DNA of 32,405 nt, taken from positions 1-32,405 of the forward strand of contig JANYCF010000163.1 of the NCBI GenBank assembly GCA_025360455.1. Direction: 5' to 3'. This document shows positions 1 through 12,412 of the stretch, piece after piece. The position numbers and the translations under genes are program-made. Below the pieces are notes generated by a model. The model was not told where the DNA came from. It was given only the letters and a program-made list of their open reading frames with translations, and did no database searches. Source of the stretch: Opitutaceae bacterium (lineage in GTDB: Bacteria > Verrucomicrobiota > Verrucomicrobiia > Opitutales > Opitutaceae). The stretch's first letter is position 1; each line of letters opens with the position of its first letter.

Positions 1-588
1 GGCAGCATGAGTTCCAACCAGTCCGGCGAAGGCGAGATCCGCAAAGCCCTCATCGAAGCCGATCTCGTGGACTGCATGGTCGCTCTCCCCGGACAGCTTT
101 TCTACAGCACGCAGATTCCCGTCTGTTTATGGTTTTTGACCAAGGATAAAACAGGTAGGGCGAACCGTCCCGGTGAGCCGAAACGCCGCGACCGCCGCAA
201 ATCCACCCTCTTCATCGACGCGCGAAAAATGGGCACCCTCATCGACCGTGTCCACCGCGAGCTGACCGACGCCGACCTCAACAAGATCACATCCACCTAT
301 CACGCGTGGCGCGGTGATCCCAAAATCGTAAATCGTAAATCCGAAATCGTAAATTACGCGGACGTCGCCGGTTTTTGTAAGTCAGCGACGACGGCGGAGA
401 TTTCCGCTCACGGCCACGTCCTCACGCCCGGCCGCTACGTCGGCGCCGAGGAAGTCGAAGACGACGGTGACCCCTTCGAGGAAAAGATGCCGCGCCTCAT
501 CGCCGAACTGCACACCCAGTTCGCCGAGTCCGCGAAACTGGAGAAAGGCATCCAAGCAAACTTGAGGGGGCTAGGTTATGGCGGGTGA
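1..588 (+). CDS. hsdM: Type I restriction-modification DNA methyltransferase (M) subunit, 3' part only
   Basis: This is the C-terminal part of the HsdM adenine methyltransferase, the subunit that modifies the recognition site and assembles with HsdS and HsdR. The open frame runs from the window edge, so the 5' end and the NPPF catalytic motif lie outside; the ATG at 7 is internal. The visible part has features typical of HsdM C-termini: [20 protein letters not shown], the FIDARKMG segment, [10 protein letters not shown], and [12 protein letters not shown]. Its last 11 bases overlap hsdS, which indicates translational coupling. A heptanucleotide tandem repeat at 323-354 adds the peptide [11 protein letters not shown] at a point where homologues usually have a short link. 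The family call is firm; the effect of the repeat is unknown. Confidence 0.95.
323..354 (+). repeat. Heptanucleotide tandem repeat inside hsdM
   Basis: The tract consists of units AAATCGT, AAATCGT, AAATCCG and AAATCGT followed by a partial AAAT, about 4.6 units with one imperfect copy. It is AT-rich, unlike the surrounding GC-rich gene, and is read in frame. Gain or loss of one unit would shift the frame because seven is not a multiple of three. Confidence 0.85.
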
Positions 589-1906
589 ATGGGAAACAAC
601 GCTCCTTCGTGACTTGCTGGTCACGACGAAGGATGGCGACTGGGGAAAAGAAAATCCGGAAGACGGCTACGTACCTTATCACATCATTCGCGGCACAGAT
701 TTTCCGGACGTCCGCGTTGGCGACTTGTCATCAGTTCCGCAGCGCTATCTGGCGGAACACACGGTGAAGCGCCGCACGCTCGAACCGGACGACATTCTCA
801 TCGAGACCGCAGGCGGAACCCGAGACCGACCGACTGGCCGTACATTACTCATCACCGAAAAGGTTCTCTCGCGTTTTCGTGGCCCCGTTACATGCGCCAG
901 TTTCGCCCGCTTCCTCCGCATAGACCGAAAGCAAGCCGACCCGCGTTTCGTTTTTTGGTATCTCCAGCACCTTTACGACAAGGGTGAGATGTCGCAGCAC
1001 CAAGTGCAGCACACGGGAGTCGCCCGTTTTCAATACACGCGCTTCGCAGAGACTCAGAACGTCCCGCTCCCATCCCTCGCCGAGCAAAAAGTCATCGCAG
1101 CGGTGCTTGGAGCGCTGGACGACAAGATCGAGTTGAATCGGCGGATGAACACGACGCTGGAGGCAATGGCACGGGCGCTGTTCCAGAGCTGGTTTGTGGA
1201 TTTCGATCCCGTCCGCGCCAAACTCGACGGCCGTAAACCCACCGACCTCGACCCCGCTACAGCCGCCCTCTTTCCCGACTCCTTCCAAGACTCGCGACTC
1301 GGGCATATCCCGACCGATTGGGACGTGCTTCCACTCTATGATACAGCACGGTGGGTAAATGGAGCAGCATTCAAAAACGAAGACTTCTGCGCCGCAGGCG
1401 AAGGTCTTCCCGTCATTAAGATTAGTGAGCTAAAATCCGGAATTAGTATTCAAACAAAATGGTGCCAACGCGACGCCGACGCTGACAAAATAATCGACAC
1501 GGGAGACTTGGTATATTCGTGGTCAGGCAGCCCGGATACATCTCTCGAAGCGTTCCTTTGGAGTGGTGGCCGCGGATTGCTCAATCAGCACATCTTCAAG
1601 GTGATTTCAGCGACGGCGGCAGAAAAACGCTTCGTCTATTACCTCCTCCAATACCTGCGCCCGGTGCTCGTGGAGACGGCGAGGAACAAACAGACCACTG
1701 GCCTCGGTCACGTGACGATTGCCGACATGAAACGCTTGTTGGTCTGTATGCCAAACAAAGCAGTGCTTGCCGCATTCGACAGGAACGTCGCCCCCATCTT
1801 CGACAAGGCCTTCACCAACACGCTCGAATCCCGCACCCTCGCCTCCCTGCGCGACACGCTGCTGCCGAAGCTGCTGAGCGGGGAGTTGAGCGTGCCTGCC
1901 GCCTAA
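578..1906 (+). CDS. hsdS: Type I restriction-modification specificity (S) subunit
   Basis: HsdS sets the DNA recognition sequence of the type I complex. The 442-residue protein shows the standard two-target layout. A first target-recognition domain spans about residues 1-165. A central conserved helix follows with [20 protein letters not shown] and [17 protein letters not shown] at about 166-215. A second recognition domain occupies about 240-400, and the C-terminal helix has [16 protein letters not shown]. The ATG overlaps the hsdM end by 11 bases and is preceded by GAGGGGG about 7 bases upstream, one of the few good ribosome-binding sites here. Length and layout are normal for the family. 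The recognition sequence cannot be read from the protein. Confidence 0.96.
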
Positions 1907-1909
1907 CCG

Positions 1910-2563
1910 ATGGATGTTCTTCAGCTCAACGCCGTGCGCTTTATCCAACCGATGAAAGTCGGGCGGACCGGGCCCTTGCTGCTCGGCTGCGAAGATGCAA
2001 AGAACGGCGGTCACGAGGTCGTGATTAAGCTGCGTGGTCGGGAGATGACCCCGAAGTCGCAACTCGCCGAGCTCATCGCGGCCCAACTCGCCGGTGATCT
2101 GGGACTAGATATTCCCACACCGGCCGTCGTTGACGTGCCGGCAGAACTTGCCGCGATCATATCAGACCCGGTGGTGGCTGCGGCAGTGAAGGCGAGCCCG
2201 GGGCCCAATTTCGGTTCACTGCATCTCGGGACCAGTTTCACGATCTGGCCCAATGGCCGCACCCCCATCGGGCCCATGCGCGATCAGGCGGCGCTCATCT
2301 TCGCCTTCGATGCCTTGGTGCAGAATCCTGACCGGCGCACCATCAATCCCAATCTTTGGGCACGCTCCGACACGATCGGGGTGTTCGACCACGAACAGGC
2401 GTTCGCTTTTCTCTACACCACAATCTTGGGGGACCCGCCGAAACCGTGGGTCGCGGCCAACCAAATTATGGGCTTCCGCTTCCTTGAGCAACATGTGTTC
2501 TATCCCGCGTTGCGCGGAGGCACGGTTGACCTTGTAGGGTTCGAAGATCGGCTCAAAAACTGA
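1910..2563 (+). CDS. HipA-like kinase (HipA_2 type), C-terminus lost by a frameshift
   Basis: This 217-residue frame begins 3 bases after hsdS and resembles the HipA-like kinase family related to the HipA toxin kinase. Visible motifs are an N-lobe VVIKL with Lys40, a catalytic-loop-like segment ALVQNPDRRTINPNLW at about 135-150, and a metal-binding-type segment IGVFDHEQAF at about 156-165. The frame stops at a TGA immediately after an A5 run. The -1 frame then continues with a sequence that fits the missing C-terminal helices, listed separately. The protein is therefore truncated, restored by frameshifting, or affected by a one-base sequencing error. Substrate and toxin activity are not shown. 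In many genomes this family sits next to a DUF3037 gene, as here. The fold call is fairly strong and the function inferred. Confidence 0.75.
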   Translation: MDVLQLNAVRFIQPMKVGRTGPLLLGCEDAKNGGHEVVIKLRGREMTPKSQLAELIAAQLAGDLGLDIPTPAVVDVPAELAAIISDPVVAAAVKASPGPNFGSLHLGTSFTIWPNGRTPIGPMRDQAALIFAFDALVQNPDRRTINPNLWARSDTIGVFDHEQAFAFLYTTILGDPPKPWVAANQIMGFRFLEQHVFYPALRGGTVDLVGFEDRLKN

Positions 2564-2712
2564 CCAAGAGCCGGATTGAAGGCTATTTCGAAGCCGTGCC
2601 TAAAGAGTGGCGTAGCGGCCACGATCTGTGCGAGAAGATAGCTGCTTATCTCGACGAAGCCCGCAAGGAACGGACCAAGTTGATCTCATTTCTAAAACAT
2701 TTCCTACGATGA
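2555..2712 (+). pseudogene. Out-of-frame C-terminal continuation of the HipA-like kinase
   Basis: Past the TGA at 2561, the -1 frame reads LTKSRIEGYFEAVPKEW, then an AAYLDEARKER helix and SFLKHFLR, ending with TGA at 2710-2712. This suits the end of a HipA-like protein, and one extra A in the A5 run at 2555-2559 would join the two parts. The terminal ATGA overlaps the start of the DUF3037 gene, as expected of an intact operon. The track's 2628 start for the next ORF is a different frame over the same DNA. Confidence 0.75.
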
Positions 2713-3557
2713 AAACCAACTACAGCTACGTCACTCTTCGCTATGTGCATGACGTTGTCACCGGCGAATTCGTCAATATCGGCGTGGTCATCTACGCTCC
2801 CGACCAACGCAGCTTAAAGGCACGGTTTACGACCTCGTATGAGCGCCTCAATGCGATCTTCCTCAAGATCGACCATAATCATTTCCGGGCGATGGTGCGC
2901 TATCTCGGCAACCGGTTTTCCGAGATGACAGATGAGCTGAGCAATTCATTGCAACTTATGCCGGTCACCGGGATCACCGAACTCGTGCGCAAGGTGCTGC
3001 CACCGGACGACAGTTCACTCCAGTGGTCTGAAGCTGGCGGCGGCATAACCTCCAATGTGGAGCAAGCGATGAAAGAACTTTATGCAAGACTGGTAGAACG
3101 TTACGAACGGACATCAGAACTGCAAAGTCGCTCTGACGATGATATTGCCCGTCCATTCAAGGCAAAGCTGGACCGAAAGATGGTCGGGCCAAAAGTCGCT
3201 GAAAAACAAATCGCCGCCAAGGACTACGACTACCGGTTCCAATTCGCTTGGAAAAACTCGATCTGGCACCTCTACGAACCCGTGTCTTTCGATCTGGTAG
3301 ATCCGAACAGCATTGTGGAAAAAGCCAATAAATGGCTGGGCCGCGGCATCGCGCTGCAGGACGCCAGTGAGAAATTTAAACTCTATTTTCTCCTGGGTGA
3401 GCCGAAGTTGCCGGCAACACGCAAGGCCTTTGATCATGCCCAGCATCTCCTGCAAAAAATCCCGGGCAAAATGGAGTTGGTGCGCGAAAATGAACTGGAG
3501 GATTTTACGGAGAAAGTAGCGGAAGATATCGCAAAGCACGACCGGTTGCAGTCCTGA
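2709..3557 (+). CDS. DUF3037 family protein
   Basis: The protein begins MKTNYSYVTLRYVHD and continues with TGEFVNIGVVIYAPD, which is the DUF3037 signature. The family has no established biochemical function. It is typically encoded beside HipA-like kinases, matching this order, so the pair probably works as one module. I place the start at ATG 2709 instead of the upstream codon at 2628, because this ATG overlaps the kinase's continued stop (ATGA) and the family motif begins at once. About 282 residues. The C-terminal half is mixed and charged (ERYERTSELQSRSDDD), with no membrane segment or signal peptide, so it is probably cytoplasmic. Confidence 0.85.
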   Translation: MKTNYSYVTLRYVHDVVTGEFVNIGVVIYAPDQRSLKARFTTSYERLNAIFLKIDHNHFRAMVRYLGNRFSEMTDELSNSLQLMPVTGITELVRKVLPPDDSSLQWSEAGGGITSNVEQAMKELYARLVERYERTSELQSRSDDDIARPFKAKLDRKMVGPKVAEKQIAAKDYDYRFQFAWKNSIWHLYEPVSFDLVDPNSIVEKANKWLGRGIALQDASEKFKLYFLLGEPKLPATRKAFDHAQHLLQKIPGKMELVRENELEDFTEKVAEDIAKHDRLQS

Positions 3558-3607
3558 CGGTGAGCCTCAAAGCCGGCGTATTTGAATCAACGGCCGTATT
3601 TTTTATT

Positions 3608-4921
3608 ATGGCGACCCAACGCGCACTTTCTGAACTCACCCGGGAGGAACTGCATGATCTCATCTGGTCCCTGCCGGCGACAAAACTTGCGGCAGACTTT
3701 GGCGTCTCCGATGTGGCGGTCGCCAAACGCTGTCGAAAGCTGAATGTGCCCCGGCCCGCGCGCGGCTACTGGGCCAAGATCGAAGCCGGACATAAACCGA
3801 AAAAACCGCCGCTGCCGGCCTCTCCGGCGGACGCGTTTGCCGAGCAAGTTTTGCAGCCCATCGCATCCAGCATCGCCCTGCCGGCAGAGACCGAAATCCT
3901 GCATCCCGTGGCAGTGCAATTTCTCGCGGCCATCAAATCATCGGCGTTGAGCCATGATAAGCAGCGCGTGCATCTGAAGGAACCGGAGTTCCCCGAAGCC
4001 GATATTTCCAAAGCCCAGGCACCGCGCGCCGCCGGGGTCTTGCAGACCCTGTTCACTCTGGTCGAGTCGCGCGGCATCCCGTTCCGGAAGAACCAGGGCA
4101 AATACGACGGCGGCTACTTCCGAAAGGGAAATGATCGTCTTCATTTCAAGATCGAAGAGGAACTGATCGACAAGCCGGCGAGTCCCGGTCGCCGGAGAAA
4201 CCATTACTCCAACTGGCAGCAGCAGGAGAACAAAGTGGCGGGCGGGCGCCTGACGTTTTCGGTCAATCCCGAAAACTATGGGAAACAGCAGGAGAAGCGC
4301 TGGAGCGAGAGCGAGAAAATGCCCCTCGAAGCCATCGTTGCCGCGATGGCGAAGGAGATTTGCCGTCACTTCATGGAATTGCAGAAGAGGCATGCCGCTG
4401 AGGTGATCGAACGCGAGAAGCAGCGGGTCGAGGCGGAGATTCGCTGGAAAAAACATCAGGAAGAGGAGGCCATTCGCATTGAGCAGGAGAAGAAGCGCAA
4501 GCATGCCGCGGCGCTGGAGGCGGTCGCACGAAATCGGGAGGAGGATCTGCTGAAAGCCGCCGAGTGGTGGCGGCTTCACCGTGGCATCGACGACTTCATC
4601 GCTGACTGCGAACGCCGCTGGCGTGCCGCCCAATCCGGTGAATTGTCGCCCGAGCAACAGGCGTGGCTCGCTTGGGCGCGCGAGGTGGCAACGGGGGTGT
4701 CCCCGTTAGCGACCGGCTATCCCGATCCCGCTAAAGACGGCGTTTTCGATCCGGCGACCGTTCCGTTCGGTGGCCCCTATCCGGAGCAGCGCAAGTTTCC
4801 CCAACCACCGACCATGCCGGCGATACCCGCGCCGGTGGTGGTGAAGCAGGGCTACGGCGAGCCAAGCCATCAGCCCGCATCCAACCCGTATCCGTTCTGG
4901 TTAAAATATCAGCGGAGATAG
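3608..4921 (+). CDS. Helix-turn-helix and coiled-coil protein of unknown function
   Basis: The N-terminus has LTREELHDLIWSLPATKLAA followed by FGVSDVAVAKRCRKLNVPRP and RGYWAKIEAG. This is a recurrent bacterial DNA-binding-type helix-turn-helix seen in otherwise uncharacterised proteins. A long charged segment at about residues 255-345, rich in EKQRVEAEIRWKK-type repeats, is predicted coiled coil. The C-terminus is proline-rich. I prefer ATG 3608, 13 codons before the HTH region; the frame is open up to a GTG at 3560, only 2 bases after the DUF3037 stop, which would couple it more tightly. The position between DUF3037 and DUF3800 inside an RM locus suggests a defence or regulatory role, but no catalytic motif is visible. 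Confidence 0.7.
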   Translation: MATQRALSELTREELHDLIWSLPATKLAADFGVSDVAVAKRCRKLNVPRPARGYWAKIEAGHKPKKPPLPASPADAFAEQVLQPIASSIALPAETEILHPVAVQFLAAIKSSALSHDKQRVHLKEPEFPEADISKAQAPRAAGVLQTLFTLVESRGIPFRKNQGKYDGGYFRKGNDRLHFKIEEELIDKPASPGRRRNHYSNWQQQENKVAGGRLTFSVNPENYGKQQEKRWSESEKMPLEAIVAAMAKEICRHFMELQKRHAAEVIEREKQRVEAEIRWKKHQEEEAIRIEQEKKRKHAAALEAVARNREEDLLKAAEWWRLHRGIDDFIADCERRWRAAQSGELSPEQQAWLAWAREVATGVSPLATGYPDPAKDGVFDPATVPFGGPYPEQRKFPQPPTMPAIPAPVVVKQGYGEPSHQPASNPYPFWLKYQRR

Positions 4922-4985
4922 TACTACCCCACGATCCCTCTCGCGCATGACACCATTCCATACCAGCATGGTGGAAATTTGAATC

Positions 4986-5651
4986 ATGGCTGATCGATTC
5001 CTCTATATCTTTCTCGATGAAGCCGGAAATCTTGATTTCTCAAAAACCGGCACGAAGTTCTTTCTGCTGGGCGCGATCACCAAAGAGCGGCCGTTTCACG
5101 CCTACAAGGAGCTGACGGAACTGAAATACGATCTCACGGAATTGGGCACCGAGCTGGAATATTTTCATGCCTCAGAAAATGCGCAGCCAGTGCGCAATCG
5201 GATGTTTGATATTATCTGCCGCAATTTAGCCGGAGTGCGGATCGATGCTCTGGTCGTTGAGAAGCGTAAGACGGGGCCGGCTCTTCAAACCGAGGAGAAG
5301 TTTTACGCCCGGATGCTCGGCTATCTGCTTAAGTATATTCTGAATCAACACGACCTCGGGCAATTCAAGGAGGTACTGGTCTTCACCGATAGCATCCCCA
5401 TTCAGAAAAAACGATCCACCATCGAAAAGGCGATCAAGACAACTTTGGCAGAACTACTGCCCGCCACAGCAAAGTACTGGCTACTGCATCACTGTTCCAA
5501 ATCAAACCTAGACCTGCAAATTGCCGACTACTGCACCTGGGCCATCTACCGCAAATGGAACATGGGCGACGCCAGATCCTATGAGCATATCAAACCGGCC
5601 GTGACGTCTGAGTTCGACATCTTTCGCTCCGGTACAATTCTCTATTACTGA
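4986..5651 (+). CDS. DUF3800 domain protein
   Basis: The 221-residue protein opens with YIFLDEAGNLDF and ends with LDLQIADYCTWAIYRKW plus a GDARSYEHI segment, the hallmark ends of DUF3800. That family is thought to have an RNase H-like fold with acidic residues such as the DEAG aspartate. It is frequent in mobile and defence regions, and no activity has been settled. It starts 64 bases after the previous gene and is preceded by GGTGGA, a modest ribosome-binding site. Length is normal for the family. A nuclease role in the restriction locus is a reasonable inference only. Confidence 0.85.
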   Translation: MADRFLYIFLDEAGNLDFSKTGTKFFLLGAITKERPFHAYKELTELKYDLTELGTELEYFHASENAQPVRNRMFDIICRNLAGVRIDALVVEKRKTGPALQTEEKFYARMLGYLLKYILNQHDLGQFKEVLVFTDSIPIQKKRSTIEKAIKTTLAELLPATAKYWLLHHCSKSNLDLQIADYCTWAIYRKWNMGDARSYEHIKPAVTSEFDIFRSGTILYY

Positions 5652-5673
5652 TGCGCCGGACCTCAAAAAGCGA

Positions 5674-5726
5674 CCACCCCGGCTACTCTTGCGAGAGAAC
5701 CCATTGGGTTCTTATTACCGGGGTGG
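5674..5726. repeat. Nested inverted repeat between the DUF3800 gene and hsdR
   Basis: An outer perfect 9-bp stem (CCACCCCGG / CCGGGGTGG) encloses an inner perfect 7-bp stem (AGAACCC / GGGTTCT) with a 3-base loop. No T-run follows on the + strand, so this is not a classic intrinsic terminator. It lies 23 bases after the DUF3800 stop in the 201-bp gap before hsdR. Confidence 0.7.
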
Positions 5727-5852
5727 AACCTTTAAATTGGTCAGAAACCGCGTTTGCAACGGTCTCAGTAGCTTTATTCACATAAGTGAATTGGCTGTGA
5801 AACACATCGACCCAATCCTCATAAAAGTAAAGAGTTTCGTTTCCACCGCCTC

Positions 5853-8800
5853 ATGAGCCTCAATGAATCCATAGTCGAAGCAGCCGCCTTGGAATGGTTT
5901 GGTGAGCTGGGCTACGCCATCGGCCATGGACCGCACATGGCGCCCGGTGAACCGGCGGCGGAGCGGGATGGATTTGGCGACGTGGTATTGGTGGGGCGTT
6001 TGCACGAGGCGATCCGGCGGATGAACCCGGCCATTCCCGAGGACGCACGGGAAGAGGCTTTGCGCAAGGTGCTGCGGGTCGGGACTCCTTCGCTTACGCA
6101 AACGAACCGCGCTTTTTACCGGATGTTGCGTGATGGCGTGCCGGTAGAGTATCCACGGCCAGACGGCAGCATTGCGGGCGATGATGTGCGGTTGGTGAAT
6201 TTTGATGATGTACAGGCGAACGACTGGTTGGCGGTGAATCAGTTCACGGTGATCGAAGGGCAACACAATCGCCGGCCGGACATCATAATTTTCGTCAATG
6301 GGCTGCCGCTCGGCCTGATTGAGCTGAAAAACGCAGCGGATGAGGACGCGGATATATGGGCTGCTTACCGACAACTTCAAACTTACAAGTTCGAGATCGG
6401 TTCGCTTTTGAATTACAATGCGGCGCTGGTGGTGAGTGATGGCTTGCAGGCGCGCATTGGCTCTCTCACGGCCAACCAGGAGTGGTTCAAGGTCTGGCGC
6501 ACGATCGAGGGTGATGGTGATGCGCCGAAGAATGCCTTGGAGCTGGAGGTGCTGGTGCGCGGCGTGTTCGATCGGCAATGCTTCCTCGACCTGTTGCAGC
6601 ATTTCATCGTCTTCGAGGAAGATCCTGATTCGGGCGCGCTGCACAAGATCATCGCGGGCTACCATCAGTTCCATGCGGTGAATGCAGCGGTGGAGGAAAC
6701 GGTGCGTGCCAGCGGGATGGATATCGATTGGCAGAAGCCGGGTGAGGGTGAACAAGGCACTTATTGGGCTGGTCGGATGCACGGTGGCAAACCGGGTGAT
6801 CGGCGGGCCGGCGTGGTCTGGCACACGCAAGGCAGTGGAAAAAGTTTCTCGATGCTCTTCTATGCCGCCCGTGTGGTGCGGCATCCGGCAATGCAGAACC
6901 CGACGCTGGTGGTGCTGACGGATCGCAACGATCTCGACGACCAGCTCTTCGGCCAGTTCCAGCGCTGCCACGATATTCTCGGTCAGACACCGGTGCAGGC
7001 CAGTGGGCGCGAGCATTTGCGGGAGCTGCTGAATCGGGCGAGCGGCGGCGTGGTGTTCACGACCATTCACAAGTTCGCGGCGGAAAAGGGCGAGGAGATT
7101 CCCGAGCTGAGCGCACGGCAAAATATCGTCGTGATCGCGGATGAAGCGCACCGCAGCCAGTATGGATTTGGCGGCAAAGTAAATGAGAAGACCGGCGAGA
7201 TGTCCTACGGTTTCGCCAGCAACCTGCGCGATGCCTTGCCGAACGCGTCATTCATCGGTTTCACCGGCACACCCATCGAAAAGGCGGACGCGAACACGCG
7301 GGCGATCTTCGGTGATTACATTTCTATCTACGACATCCAGCGCGCTGTCGCCGACAAGGCTACGGTGCCGATCTACTACGAGAGCCGAATTTCCAAGCTT
7401 AGTCTGAACGCCGCGGCTTTGCCCAAGATCGACGCCGAATTCGAGGAGATCACCGAAGGCGAGGAGATGACGAAGAAGGAGAAACTTAAAACCAAGTGGG
7501 CTGCGCTGGAGGCGCTCGTAGGCGATCCCAAACGCATCGCGCTCGTGGCCGCCGATCTGGTGACGCATTTTGAGAAACGCGTGGAGGCGATGGACGGCAA
7601 AGCGATGATCGTCTGTATGAGCCGTCGAATTTGCGTGGATCTCTGCAATGCTCTTATCTCGCTGCGTCCCGACTGGGCCAGCGCCAAGGACGACGATTTT
7701 GAACTAGAAAAGGACAGGAGCTTTCTGGTGAAAGTGGTGATGACCGGTAGCGCCGACGACGGCCCAAACTGGCAGCCACACATCCGCAACAAAGACAAAC
7801 GTCGCAAACTGGCGAACCGTTTCAAGGACTCCAAAGATCCGTTCCGCATCGTGATCGTGCGCGACATGTGGCTGACCGGCTTCGACGCGCCCTGCCTGCA
7901 TACGATGTATGCCGACAAGCCTATGCAAGGCCACGGCCTCATGCAGGCGATCGCCCGCGTGAACCGTGTGTTCCGCGACAAACCCGGCGGACTGGTGGTG
8001 GATTACCTCGGCCTTGCCGACCAACTGAAGCAGGCACTCATCACTTACACCGAAAGCGGCGGCCAAGGGAATCCTACCCTCGATACCGCCCAGGCCATCG
8101 CCGTGATGCTGGAGAAACACGGGATCGTCTGCGATCTGATGCATAGTTTTAGTTGGGACAAGTGGACGACCGGTAAACCCACCGAGCGCCTTGCGCTCAT
8201 CCCCGCTGGACAAGAACATGTTCTCGCGCAGGAGAACGGCAAGAAACGCTTCGTGCAGGTGGTCACCGAGCTCACCCGCGCTTTCGCCCTCTGCGCCTCC
8301 AGTGATGACGCCACAGAAATCCGCGATGATGTGAGTTTCTTCCAAGCCATTCAGGCTGCCTTGAACAAGCAGACCACGAACACCAATAAGTCGCCCGAGC
8401 AAATCGATGCCGCCATCCGCCAGCTCGTATCCGGTGCAATCACAACCGATGGCAAGATCATCGACGTGTTCACCGCCGCCGGCTTACCGAAGCCGGACAT
8501 CAGTATTCTGTCCGATCAATTCCTCGCCGAAGTCCGCGGGCTCAAGCACAAGAACGTCGCGACAGAATTGCTCGAGAAGTTGCTCAGAAATGAACTCAAA
8601 GTTCGTTCGAAGCGCAACCTCGTCCAGGCACAGGTCTTTTCGGAGAAGCTCAAGCAAGCGCTCAATGCTTACCATAACCGCGCCATCTCCACGATGCAGG
8701 TGCTGGAGGAGTTGATCGCACTCGCCAAGGAAATGGACGCCGCCAGCAAACGTGGGCAGTATCTCGGCCTGACTGACGATGAAGTCGCCTTCTATGACGC

Positions 8801-9053
8801 GCTCGCCGCCAACGAAAGTGCGGTCAAAGCAATGGGCGACGATAAACTAAAAGTCATCGCCGCGGAGCTAATCACCAAAGTCCGTCAAAGCGTGACGATC
8901 GACTGGACCCTCCGCGAAAGCGCCCGCGCCAAGATCAAGGTTATGGTAAAACGAATCCTGAACAAATACGGCTACCCACCCGACTTGCAGGAAGAAGCCG
9001 TGAAGACGGTGTTAGCCCAAGCGGAGCTCCTTTGTGCCGAGTGGGCCGTTTGA
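5853..9053 (+). CDS. hsdR: Type I restriction enzyme endonuclease/translocase (R) subunit
   Basis: HsdR cuts unmodified DNA after ATP-driven translocation. The 1066-residue protein has the normal order. An N-terminal PD-(D/E)xK nuclease has RPDIIIF near residue 141 and LIELKN near 157. Walker [11 protein letters not shown], is near 322. A helicase motif [13 protein letters not shown], is near 428, followed by FTGTPIEK. The second RecA lobe has [16 protein letters not shown] and ends with the motif VI-like [15 protein letters not shown]. The C-terminal helical domain that binds the methylase core follows. All key residues appear intact. The gene is separated from hsdMS by four accessory genes and a 201-bp gap with a nested hairpin, so it may have its own promoter, though none is clear. 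No strong ribosome-binding site precedes the ATG. Confidence 0.97.
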
Positions 9054-9188
9054 TCTCCAAGTTGTTCACTGCACTTTTCGAAAATTTTTTCGGTTCTTCT
9101 CTCATTTCTTAGATCGACCAATCCCGCACCTCGCGCAGGAACGAACCTCACTCACTTTCCAGAAATAAATTCCCGTTCGTCCTCTTCT

Positions 9189-10139
9189 GTGTATTCCGTT
9201 ACTTCCGTGGTTACTCTCAATACTTACAAAATCGGCGTCGATGGCGGCGGCACCAAGACGGAGCTGATCCTCGTCGATGCCGCCGGCGAAATCGTCACGC
9301 GTCACCTTGCCGCCGGCTGCAATCCAAGCCAGACCGGTCCGGAAAGAGCGCGCACCATTCTCACCGAAGCGCTGACTGCTTTGCTGGCCCAATCTAAAAT
9401 CGATATTCAAAAATCGAAAATTACCACGACCGCGCTGTACATGGCTGGCAGTCCGCCATTCTGGGCGGAGGTCGCGGCCTCGTTAACCGATTTCGGCCAG
9501 GTCACCACTGCGCCCGATTCCGCTCCTGTGCTCGAGCTCGCCACGGCTGGAGCTCCGGGAATTGTCCTCCACGCGGGCACCGGCTCCTTCGTCATCACCC
9601 GCCGTGCGGACTTCACCATCCACTACACTGGCGGACTCGGTTGGAAGTTCGGCGATCCTGGCAGCGGCTACGATATTGGCCGACGCGCGCTTGCCTTGGC
9701 CTTGCTCGATATGCAGGCGAATCCACCGCTGTCCGACCACCGGCCTTCGCCCTTGGCCGAAGCGCTGGTGAATCATACGGGGTTGATGGATTACGCCACC
9801 AACTCGCGTTTCTTCTACACCGATTCTGAGGCCAACGCCAAAATCTCTTCGTTCGCTCCGCAGGTTCTCACTCTCGCGGAACAAGAATACGGCCCGGCCC
9901 AGCAAGTGCTGGCCGATTCGATCACCGATCTCGCCCGCTTGACCGACGGGGTGATCCACAAATATTTCCCCAAGACGACCGTGAAGCTCCCTTGCGGAGT
10001 GAGCGGCCGGATCTTGAACAGCGTCGCCGGCGCCTTTGCGCTGCGTTCCTTGGCCAGCAAACTCGACTGGCCCGTGGAGTTAAACTTCATCACCACGCCA
10101 CCCATCGAAGGCGTCCGCCGGCTATTGCTGAAACTGTAG
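9189..10139 (+). CDS. BadF/BadG/BcrA/BcrD-type ATPase, probable N-acetylglucosamine/glucosamine kinase-like
   Basis: This is an ASKHA-fold kinase. The phosphate-1 loop is KIGVDGGGTKTELILVD. LHAGTGSFVITR forms the phosphate-2 region, and GWKFGDPGSGYDIGRRAL is typical of GlcNAc-kinase-like members. At 316 residues it has the length of single-domain sugar kinases rather than benzoyl-CoA reductase activases, and the activases' metal-cluster context is missing. The start is GTG at 9189 or the in-frame GTG at 9207, which leaves about 8 residues before the loop. An AT-rich insertion-like tract at 9396-9422 adds KIDIQKSKI. The stop codon TAG lies inside a stem-loop repeat. The substrate is inferred from family only. 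Confidence 0.85.
   Translation: MYSVTSVVTLNTYKIGVDGGGTKTELILVDAAGEIVTRHLAAGCNPSQTGPERARTILTEALTALLAQSKIDIQKSKITTTALYMAGSPPFWAEVAASLTDFGQVTTAPDSAPVLELATAGAPGIVLHAGTGSFVITRRADFTIHYTGGLGWKFGDPGSGYDIGRRALALALLDMQANPPLSDHRPSPLAEALVNHTGLMDYATNSRFFYTDSEANAKISSFAPQVLTLAEQEYGPAQQVLADSITDLARLTDGVIHKYFPKTTVKLPCGVSGRILNSVAGAFALRSLASKLDWPVELNFITTPPIEGVRRLLLKL
9396..9422 (+). repeat. AT-rich direct-repeat tract inside the sugar kinase gene
   Basis: Two copies of AAAATCGA lie 14 bases apart, start to start, followed by AAATT, in a GC-rich gene. The tract is read in frame and resembles in composition the AAATCGT tract in hsdM. Confidence 0.55.
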
Positions 10140-10196
10140 GAGCCTGTTTACAGGCGGCCTTTCCCACTACCCATCGCTTGCTAGCAAGCTCCTACA
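10135..10196. repeat. GTAGGAGC-type stem-loop repeat, copy 1
   Basis: The outer ends TGTAGGAGC and GCTCCTACA are perfectly complementary over 9 bp. Each arm contains its own small palindrome (CCTGTTTACAGG, CTTGCTAGCAAG). The TAG stop of the preceding sugar kinase is part of the left end. The element belongs to the same group as the copies at 11142, 31432 and 32327. Confidence 0.85.
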
Positions 10197-10213
10197 ATAT
10201 CAAAGCGTCCACC

Positions 10214-11083
10214 ATGACTCTCTCCGAGCCCGAGTGGCTCGCACGGCGCGACGCCCACGAACTACGCGTCCGCGCCTGGACCGATCCGCACCAACAACGC
10301 GCGGCACGCGGTGAGAAACAACCGGTCGATGATTTTCTCTTCGAGTATTATCGTTTCCGTCCCAGCTGGCTCAAACGCTGGCACCCTGGCCCCGATGTCG
10401 TGCTGCTCGGCGAAGCCGCGCGCGATTATCTCCGCTGGCCGGAATATCAAGAGCGCGATGGAGGCGTCGCGCTCAACCCTGCTACCTTCGACCCGAAACG
10501 CCGCGACAGCCTCGCCTGGATTCTCAATTTACTCCGCACGACCGCCGAGCGCCCACCGCAATTCGCCTGCTTCGGCCTGCATGAATGGGCGATGGTCTAT
10601 CGGCAGACACCGGATGTAGTCCGCCACAACACCTGGCCGTTGCGCTTTGCACCCGATCAAATTGCCGCGATTGTCGAAGCCCAGCCGATCCGCTGTTCGC
10701 ATTTCGACGCGTTCCGTTTTTTCACCCCGCCGGCGCGACCGCTCAACCGTCTGCAACCCGAGCGCACCACCACCGCGCAATTCGAGCAACGCGGTTGTCT
10801 GCACGCCAACATGGATCTCTACAAATGGGCCTTCAAACTCGCGCCCTTCACACCCAGTGAGCTGATCGCCGACGGCTTTGGCCTCGCCCGCGACATCCGT
10901 GAGATCGACATGCGGGCGAGCCCCTACGATCTGCAAAAACTCGGTTACGCCCCAATCAAAATCGAAACCCCCGAAGGCCGTGCCGAGTACGAAGTCCACC
11001 AACGCAATTTTGCCGACCGCAGCCAGCCGCTGCGCACCCGGCTGGTGGCTTTGTGTGAGCGGCTCTTGCAGTCAGGAACCTGA
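10214..11083 (+). CDS. Conserved protein of unknown function, often labelled 3-methyladenine DNA glycosylase
   Basis: The 289-residue protein begins MTLSEPEWLARRDAHELRV and contains PVDDFLFEYYRFRPSWLKRW, FACFGLHEWAMVYR and NMDLYKWAFKLAPF. I recognise this as a widely distributed family, common in actinobacteria, usually annotated as 3-methyladenine DNA glycosylase. I see no helix-hairpin-helix or other known glycosylase motif, so that label is unproven. I chose ATG 10214 over the track start at 9992, because the upstream frame runs through the sugar kinase and the stem-loop. Conserved His, Asp and Tyr residues suggest an enzyme. There is no signal peptide or membrane segment. It lies alone between two stem-loop repeats. 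Confidence 0.8.
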   Translation: MTLSEPEWLARRDAHELRVRAWTDPHQQRAARGEKQPVDDFLFEYYRFRPSWLKRWHPGPDVVLLGEAARDYLRWPEYQERDGGVALNPATFDPKRRDSLAWILNLLRTTAERPPQFACFGLHEWAMVYRQTPDVVRHNTWPLRFAPDQIAAIVEAQPIRCSHFDAFRFFTPPARPLNRLQPERTTTAQFEQRGCLHANMDLYKWAFKLAPFTPSELIADGFGLARDIREIDMRASPYDLQKLGYAPIKIETPEGRAEYEVHQRNFADRSQPLRTRLVALCERLLQSGT

Positions 11084-11141
11084 ACCACTGAAACCCAGCG
11101 GGTCGCCACCACGAAAGACACCAAACACACGAAAGGATCAG

Positions 11142-11203
11142 CTGTAGGCGCGGCTTTACGCCGCGATGGGCATTCGAATCACGGCGTAAAGCCGCTCCTA
11201 CAG
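11142..11203. repeat. GTAGG-type stem-loop repeat, copy 2
   Basis: Arms of 22 bp (11142-11163 and 11182-11203) pair with one mismatch: CTGTAGGCGCGGCTTTACGC and its complement, with an 18-base loop. It lies 58 bases after the preceding stop codon. Confidence 0.9.
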
Positions 11204-11228
11204 TTTCCGATCCACGATTCCTGAATCC

Positions 11229-11260
11229 ATTCGCGTCCCTTCGCGTTCATTCGCGGTTAA
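11229..11260. repeat. Short 10-bp-period tract
   Basis: TTCGCG recurs three times at 10-base spacing (ATTCGCGTCC, CTTCGCGTTC, ATTCGCGGTT) in the 243-bp gap before the kinase-like gene. No function is assigned. Confidence 0.6.
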
Positions 11261-11326
11261 CCCTGTCTGAGTTATCCCCCCGACTCGCGCATTGCCTCCG
11301 ATCTCTAAACGGCTACCCTGCCATAC

Positions 11327-12412
11327 ATGGACCCAGCGGCAGATCTTCCCGGTGTGCGCACGCGCAAAAAGCCCAGCTACCCGATCTCGGCACCCTTGCG
11401 CGATTACCTGCGTCGGTACCGCCGGGAACGTGAACTGCCCATCTCCTACGAACGCCTGCGCAATTTCAAGGACGCCATCCCTCTGACCGCTTCCGATGGC
11501 CGCCCCACGCTCTGGGATTCTGTCATCTACGACTCAGCCGATATCGCCGCCCTCAATGAGGACCTCAAACGCGTCTATGCTTTGCTAAAGGTCGATGGCG
11601 ATCTTTCCGTGGTGCGCCATCTTTACATCGACCGCGTGGATTTTTGCGGCTTTGGCAATTCGATGCCGTTTCGCATCCGGATCGTGAATGCCTACAACGA
11701 CAATCAGGATTATTTCTACATCAAGAAAGCCGACGCCTCACGCGTCTACGGCCTGGAGCTGGAGCATCTGCTCTCTCCCAACCGTCTCAATTACCTCACG
11801 CACCATAACACGCTGATCGAGGAGCACATTGCCGGCGTGCCCGGCGATATCTTCAGCGAACGCTGGTTGGAAAACAAAGAACTTAAACCCATCCGTATTG
11901 CCAAGGAACTGATCAAATTCAACGAACGCTGTTTTGTCCGCCTGCTCGGCGACATGCGCAGTTATAATTACGTCGTCGTGCTCACCCCGGATTTCGAAGG
12001 CTGGCAGGTGCGCATCCGCGCCATGGATTTCGACCAGCAGAGCTACTTCGGGAAAAAGAATTTCTACCTGCCGCAGTACTTCAAGGAAAACACCGCCGTC
12101 GTGCAGTTCTGCCAGCGGCTCCTCAACCCCCAGTCCGCCTACCAGTATCAACGCGAAGAGCAGGCACTCCTGCTGCAACGCGCCGATATATCCGCCACGC
12201 GGCTAAATCTCGTCCTCGACGCCATGGTGAATGATCCCATCGCCCCGGAGGAACATGTTCGCCAGCTCCGCGAAGGTTTGGCCCAACACTTCAGTTCCGA
12301 CCGCTTCCTCCGCTGTGAATCCATGGGCGCGCTCGTAAGGGAAAATCTCAACATCGTCCGCGATCACATCGAAAAACAAATCCCGCCGACTCCCGCGGAA
12401 TTGATGCTATAG
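11327..12412 (+). CDS. Unrecognised protein with protein-kinase-like motifs
   Basis: I do not recognise a named family. The 361-residue protein, however, has a plausible kinase-type motif series. FYIKKADASRVYGLELEHLL could be the nucleotide-binding lysine strand and the following helix glutamate. LIEEHIAGVPGDIF resembles the hinge region of aminoglycoside-phosphotransferase-like kinases. LLGDMRSYNYVVVL matches a catalytic loop with Asp and Asn in the right spacing, and IRAMDFDQQSYFG resembles the metal-binding DFD/DFG site. No signal peptide or membrane segment is seen, so it should be cytoplasmic. It starts at ATG 11327 without an evident ribosome-binding site and ends 12 bases before a convergent gene. 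A kinase or pseudokinase role is my inference. Confidence 0.7.
   Translation: MDPAADLPGVRTRKKPSYPISAPLRDYLRRYRRERELPISYERLRNFKDAIPLTASDGRPTLWDSVIYDSADIAALNEDLKRVYALLKVDGDLSVVRHLYIDRVDFCGFGNSMPFRIRIVNAYNDNQDYFYIKKADASRVYGLELEHLLSPNRLNYLTHHNTLIEEHIAGVPGDIFSERWLENKELKPIRIAKELIKFNERCFVRLLGDMRSYNYVVVLTPDFEGWQVRIRAMDFDQQSYFGKKNFYLPQYFKENTAVVQFCQRLLNPQSAYQYQREEQALLLQRADISATRLNLVLDAMVNDPIAPEEHVRQLREGLAQHFSSDRFLRCESMGALVRENLNIVRDHIEKQIPPTPAELML

Follow-up and report, generated by a model that had tools for sequence, protein, structure and literature searches.

In this type I RM locus the stretch from hsdS to hsdR is quite probably a cargo slot, that is, a small defence island in which genes come and go independently of one another. 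At present it would hold a HipAD pair (the kinase gene frame-shifted, the antitoxin gene intact), a solitary HTH/coil passenger, and a DUF3800 gene that is mobile and has a structured element of its own at the 3' side. The slot is of a known kind and the pair is known, and the two other genes are unrelated passengers. An earlier note, made from the letters alone, had proposed that the four genes and the RM genes make up a combined restriction plus kinase-based defence unit. Part of this proposal stands, as the pair is a published one and is linked to RM genes in unrelated bacteria, but the reading of the four genes as one unit is not supported.

Gene order of the locus

The window, by which we mean the whole stretch of 32,405 nucleotides that was analysed, is an entire contig of a 4.85-Mb, 405-contig assembly and begins inside hsdM. 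Searches with Pfam, PADLOC and NCBIfam gave the order hsdM (3' end)-hsdS-HipA_2-DUF3037-HTH/coil-DUF3800-hsdR, with all genes on the plus strand (Table 1), and the Pfam family matches bore out the single-strand gene order between hsdS and hsdR that had been read in the earlier note. All three type I RM genes, hsdM, hsdS and hsdR, were recognised, hsdM being incomplete at the contig start. Compared with type I RM systems having an HsdR of the TIGR00348 family, the locus is distinguished by the four genes, about 3.9 kb, that separate hsdS from hsdR. The tight spacing that had also been claimed holds as far as DUF3037, but between DUF3800 and hsdR there is a gap of 201 bp, which contains a stable hairpin.

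Table 1 Features of the type I RM locus and its cargo in the window.
Feature	Position	Strand	Evidence
hsdM, 3' part, incomplete at the contig start	1..588	+	N6_Mtase E 7.7e-32; PADLOC MTase_I
hsdS, specificity subunit	578..1906	+	Methylase_S E 8.3e-17; PADLOC Specificity_I E 6.8e-82
HipA_2-type kinase ORF, 217 aa, C-terminally truncated	1910..2563	+	HipA_2 E 7.2e-19; PDC-M66A E 4.4e-49; alignments
Kinase remainder out of frame, C-terminal ~50 aa	2560..2712	+	Aligns to the C-terminus of HipA_2 in L016
DUF3037 partner (putative antitoxin), intact	2709..3557	+	DUF3037 E 3.2e-21; PDC-M66B E 7.7e-82
HTH + charged coil passenger	3608..4921	+	Relative (52% identity) located immediately before hsdR in L153
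DUF3800 protein (RNase H-like family)	4986..5651	+	DUF3800 E 4.4e-11; PADLOC DUF3800_VII E 8.7e-10
Structured hairpin 3' of DUF3800	5665..5735	+	Fold z -4.4; identical copy in L170; covariation; 3' of every testable DUF3800 relative
hsdR	5853..9053	+	TIGR00348 hsdR 573 bits; HSDR_N, SWI2_SNF2, T1RH-like_C

Contents of the hsdS-hsdR interval

Two sets of loci were compared with the window: 25 complete loci in the phylum with an hsdR related to that of the window, which formed the slot survey, and 80 DUF3037 loci from a genome-wide scan, in which RM genes were called by home-made HMMs. In the slot survey, cargo was present between hsdS and hsdR in 21 of the 25 loci and absent from the remaining 4, ranging from no gene to 7 genes, and the contents differed almost every time. 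In most loci whose hsdR is a relative with 50-88% identity, cargo occupies the same position. The gene order is thus more than chance, since cargo mostly accompanies the hsdR relatives at this position and HipA_2/DUF3037 stands beside hsdS in distant phyla.

Single or few instances of DarT, HipA_C, GmrSD_N, Abi_C and RhuM were found among 61 cargo proteins (including the cargo of L015, L016 and L046), and a Schlafen AlbA_2 protein is slot cargo in L167. The slot of L154 holds one DUF3800 gene only, of another subfamily than that of the window. L153 contains, between hsdS and an HTH gene (7275-12257), genes for a DUF6119 protein, a DEAD helicase that also matches phosphoribosyltransferase weakly, and a member of the DprA family. 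An Ignavibacteria RM slot preceding a 67% identical hsdR (L046, 2863-11691) has SIR2-like and HerA-like genes (assigned by eye), DUF3037 with a kinase remnant, and GIY-YIG-like genes.

The full four-gene order HipA_2-DUF3037-HTH-DUF3800 was not found beyond the window among the 25 loci with a related hsdR and the 80 DUF3037 loci. L016 has HipA_2-DUF3037-X-DUF3800 between hsdS and hsdR, in which X is a member of a ClpP-like protease family, the DUF3800 protein is of another subfamily and no hairpin accompanies its gene. The check by recurrence of order that the earlier note had suggested therefore gave a divided answer: the exact order did not turn up elsewhere and its parts occur separately, but an RM link is frequent for HipA_2-DUF3037.

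Defence genes inside type I operons have precedents. The prrC gene is embedded in the EcoprrI type I operon, DarTG2 is located between hsdS and hsdR in EPEC, at a site called a potential recombination hotspot, and TgvAB is located in the type I cluster of VPI-2 in V. cholerae. A 2024 preprint by Payne et al., cited by the papers on these embedded precedents, reportedly deals with embedded defences. The window resembles the three systems in having defence genes inside a type I operon, the position of DarTG2 being that of the window, and differs from them in its effectors. As with a PrrC-like guardian, an effector is embedded in the type I operon (1910-5651); no match to a PrrC-type anticodon nuclease was obtained among the cargo of the window with Pfam and PADLOC.

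The HTH/coil protein matches no Pfam, NCBIfam or PADLOC family above the cut-off and gave only a sub-threshold RWP-RK/HTH match. Its closest relative (52% identity) is encoded directly before hsdR in L153, among other companions, which is its one recurrence in a slot. Relatives at a greater distance are solitary genes of plasmids and viral contigs, and no relative of the family was found in the 80 DUF3037 loci, within the locus DNA examined.

The HipA_2-DUF3037 pair and its kinase

HipA_2 and DUF3037 are the PADLOC pair PDC-M66A/B, that is, the published defence pair DS-6/HipAD, which confirms the earlier statement that these neighbours are a known pairing (PMC13092281, PMC12548924). The pair was validated as the phage defence DS-6 and later renamed HipAD (PMC13092281). 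In the Retron-Sda1 operon, deletion of the kinase abolished defence and deletion of DUF3037 was toxic, and HipA/DUF3037 worked in E. coli without the retron parts, an RM partner not being described there (PMC12548924). Both PADLOC profiles match the proteins of the window over most of their length, and the kinase motifs are present with DUF3037 next door; the differences from the published pair are the frame shift in the kinase ORF and the position inside a type I RM operon. DS-6B carries DUF1829, a domain not known to be essential, as well as DUF3037 (PMC13092281), and in the partner encoded in the window Pfam detected DUF3037 only, and no DUF1829, at E<=0.01.

The HipA_2 ORF stops at 2563, giving 217 aa against the 259-271 aa of most relatives. 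A different frame encodes the missing C-terminal ~50 aa, which include the P..W motif conserved in relatives, and runs to a TGA (2710-2712) that overlaps the DUF3037 ATG at 2709; a gene overlap of this kind is seen in relatives, and the DUF3037 start is most likely 2709 and not 2628. The catalytic motifs N139-P140-D141-R142, N146-P147-N148 and D160-H161-E162, invariant in the alignment, are all upstream of the break. The window lacks the full-length kinase ORF (~260-270 aa) overlapping DUF3037 that is intact in relatives, and to judge from the alignment its HipAD is a broken or misassembled member of the family. An assembly error may account for the frame shift, and since large genes farther along the window look open, generally poor sequence is not obvious. 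Because the kinase ORF is truncated, active kinase defence in this genome is doubtful. Programmed frameshifting is hinted at by the sequence C AAA AAC at the stop. In relatives, however, the frame continues uninterrupted, and L015 does not conserve the site, so that a plain frame shift is preferred.

Decay of the kinase gene is also seen in relatives. In about 13-15 of the 80 DUF3037 loci the kinase is broken or missing while DUF3037 is intact, either as a frame-shifted, deleted or remnant kinase (L017, L020, L023, L034, L039, L040, L041, L046, L047, L053) or as DUF3037 without a kinase (L031, L036, L049). Loss of the kinase with retention of DUF3037 fits a toxin/antitoxin pair, although the asymmetry is biased by the use of DUF3037 as bait in the choice of loci. 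With HipA_2 as bait instead, no more than about 7 intact kinases were obtained, every one accompanied by DUF3037, and these are too few loci for statistics.

Adjacency of the pair to hsdS

With the home-made HMMs, type I genes were found in 36 of the 80 DUF3037 loci and in none of the other 44 within the locus DNA examined, indicating that the RM link of HipA_2-DUF3037 is frequent but not obligatory. The same HMMs placed hsdS immediately 5' of the HipA_2 kinase gene in 22 of the 80 loci, often with a 4-bp overlap, and Pfam Methylase_S was found in 16 of 64 genes upstream of HipA_2-DUF3037. According to the record titles, the hsdS-adjacent pair occurs in six phyla (Verrucomicrobiota, Kiritimatiellota, Lentisphaerota, Acidobacteriota, Nitrospirota and Pseudomonadota), and the adjacency is scattered over the DUF3037 tree, with 15 changes, 14 of them forced by well-supported branches. 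Several RM families and both orders, M-S-HipA-DUF3037-R and R-M-S-HipA-DUF3037, are represented: hsdM-hsdS-HipA_2-DUF3037-hsdR with a different hsdR family is found in Acidobacteriota (L026) and also in Verrucomicrobiota (L042, L050), and R-M-S-HipA_2-DUF3037 in Paracoccus and relatives. This extent of adjacency between hsdS and HipAD seems to be new, and it may reflect shared defence islands only. A single Limisphaerales metagenome assembly contains an in-frame fusion ORF of a truncated HsdS and HipA_2 (L015, 20-1705).

The DUF3800 gene and its 3' hairpin

A hairpin of ~70 nt (5665-5735, fold z -4.4) follows the DUF3800 stop, between DUF3800 and hsdR. An identical hairpin (71/71 nt) precedes hsdR in L170 (13947-14017), directly after a C-terminal remnant of DUF3800 that is the one recurrence in a slot of the window's DUF3800 subfamily. 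Since the hsdR of L170 is only ~50% identical to that of the window despite the identity of the hairpins, the DUF3800/hairpin module moves between slots. Related hairpins follow DUF3800 stops on plasmids of Phaeobacter and Ruegeria (Roseobacter), and a covariance model from five copies gave a match in Gordonia phage Kenna, immediately downstream of its DUF3800 gene. The hairpin is found in all 7 viral loci with downstream sequence, Kenna among them, one match being weak (E 0.0015); its exact pattern was not found in viral contigs, and the diverged copies there came from the protein-led search. A covarying element is located directly 3' of every related DUF3800 gene with readable downstream DNA, and the copies 3' of DUF3800 genes are those of the window, L170, L271, L273, L274 and L276-L282. 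Solo hairpins without DUF3800 are present on P. inhibens and Yoonia plasmids (L272, 2976-3043; L275, 2472-2540), one of them beside TniQ and integrase genes.

Among twelve aligned copies, 9 of 16 pairs changed on both sides, with 96.4% of cells paired (0 of 500 shuffles), and a five-sequence MAFFT alignment gave 4 such pairs, which is the more cautious figure because the twelve-copy alignment was fitted to the model. The hairpin has a single copy in this genome, which rules out a repeated element. Integron attC was discarded by eye, no attC core sites being seen, as was a simple intrinsic terminator, the hairpin having no T run and not being called as a terminator.

The element resembles the Rfam DUF3800-IX RNA (RF02968) in its position beside DUF3800 genes and in having a long closing stem and inner hairpins. 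DUF3800-IX matches the L276 copy over the full length with 30.9 bits and the L278 copy with 19.1 bits, in both cases below the gathering score of 36.8, and the strand of the element is opposite to that of the Rfam model. On the window, an Rfam search of 4900-5900 was empty at E<=1, and in 5652-5752 DUF3800-IX was not matched at E<=10. From the sub-cut-off matches in two copies, the hairpin is a divergent relative of DUF3800-IX lying on the opposite strand; it branches from an RNA type already known and is not a new kind. An RNase H fold and a location beside putative ncRNAs have been described for DUF3800 (PMC10910872). The 3' element of DUF3800 described here seems to be new.

Proposed working and alternative explanations

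For relatives with an intact locus, the following working is the most likely. The RM enzyme would cut unmodified phage DNA, and DUF3037 would keep the kinase silent until infection, perhaps via inhibition of restriction, frees the kinase, which would then stop growth. The DUF3800 protein probably works with its own hairpin, independently of these steps.

We consider it very improbable that the four genes and the RM enzyme are a single integrated system. They share one strand and mostly short spacing, and the order in L016 is similar, but X in L016 is a different protein and its DUF3800 is of the other, hairpin-less subfamily. Furthermore, the HTH and DUF3800 families of the window recur without HipA_2/DUF3037, in other slots or elsewhere, and 0 of 80 DUF3037 loci have a relative of the HTH family in the DNA examined; with its pieces recurring separately, the four-gene unit was rejected. 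A closer tie restricted to the pair is conceivable, although rather unlikely: by analogy with PrrC/EcoprrI, HipAD would be a guardian of the RM system, its adjacency to hsdS would be selected, and the kinase would be held by, or would sense, the type I enzyme. This explanation draws on the hsdS genes directly 5' of the pair (22 of 80 loci, six phyla, frequent 4-bp overlap, several RM families, both orders), on the HsdS-HipA_2 fusion ORF in L015 and on the PrrC precedent. It is weakened by the fact that no RM gene is seen in more than half of the loci, by the activity of HipA/DUF3037 in E. coli in the Retron-Sda1 test, where no RM partner was described, and by the origin of the L015 fusion in one metagenome assembly.

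The contents of the slot could also be decaying debris, a promoter and a safe site attracting genes that have no present function in this strain. The frame-shifted kinase of the window, the decay in many relatives and the DUF3800 remnant in L170 are what such decay would leave, but the reading frames of DUF3037, the HTH protein, DUF3800 and hsdR are uninterrupted and of full length, and the hairpin is kept with compensatory changes across phyla, and we regard this explanation as unlikely. A wider form of the guardian explanation can be put forward only tentatively, in which HipAD is a recurrent RM guardian that joined the 3' end of hsdS many times and monitors the enzyme or protects the operon, and DUF3800 and its hairpin are a portable ribonucleoprotein or hairpin-recognising module moving between slots and phages.

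With the interval read as a slot for independently gained and lost genes, a vague cluster of defence genes now becomes a set of testable parts. The hairpin, whose conservation extends from a relative in Verrucomicrobiota to plasmids of Roseobacter and to actinophages, is a concrete partner for DUF3800, and the repeated occurrence of HipAD beside hsdS in unrelated bacteria makes a link between the kinase toxin and the restriction enzyme directly testable.
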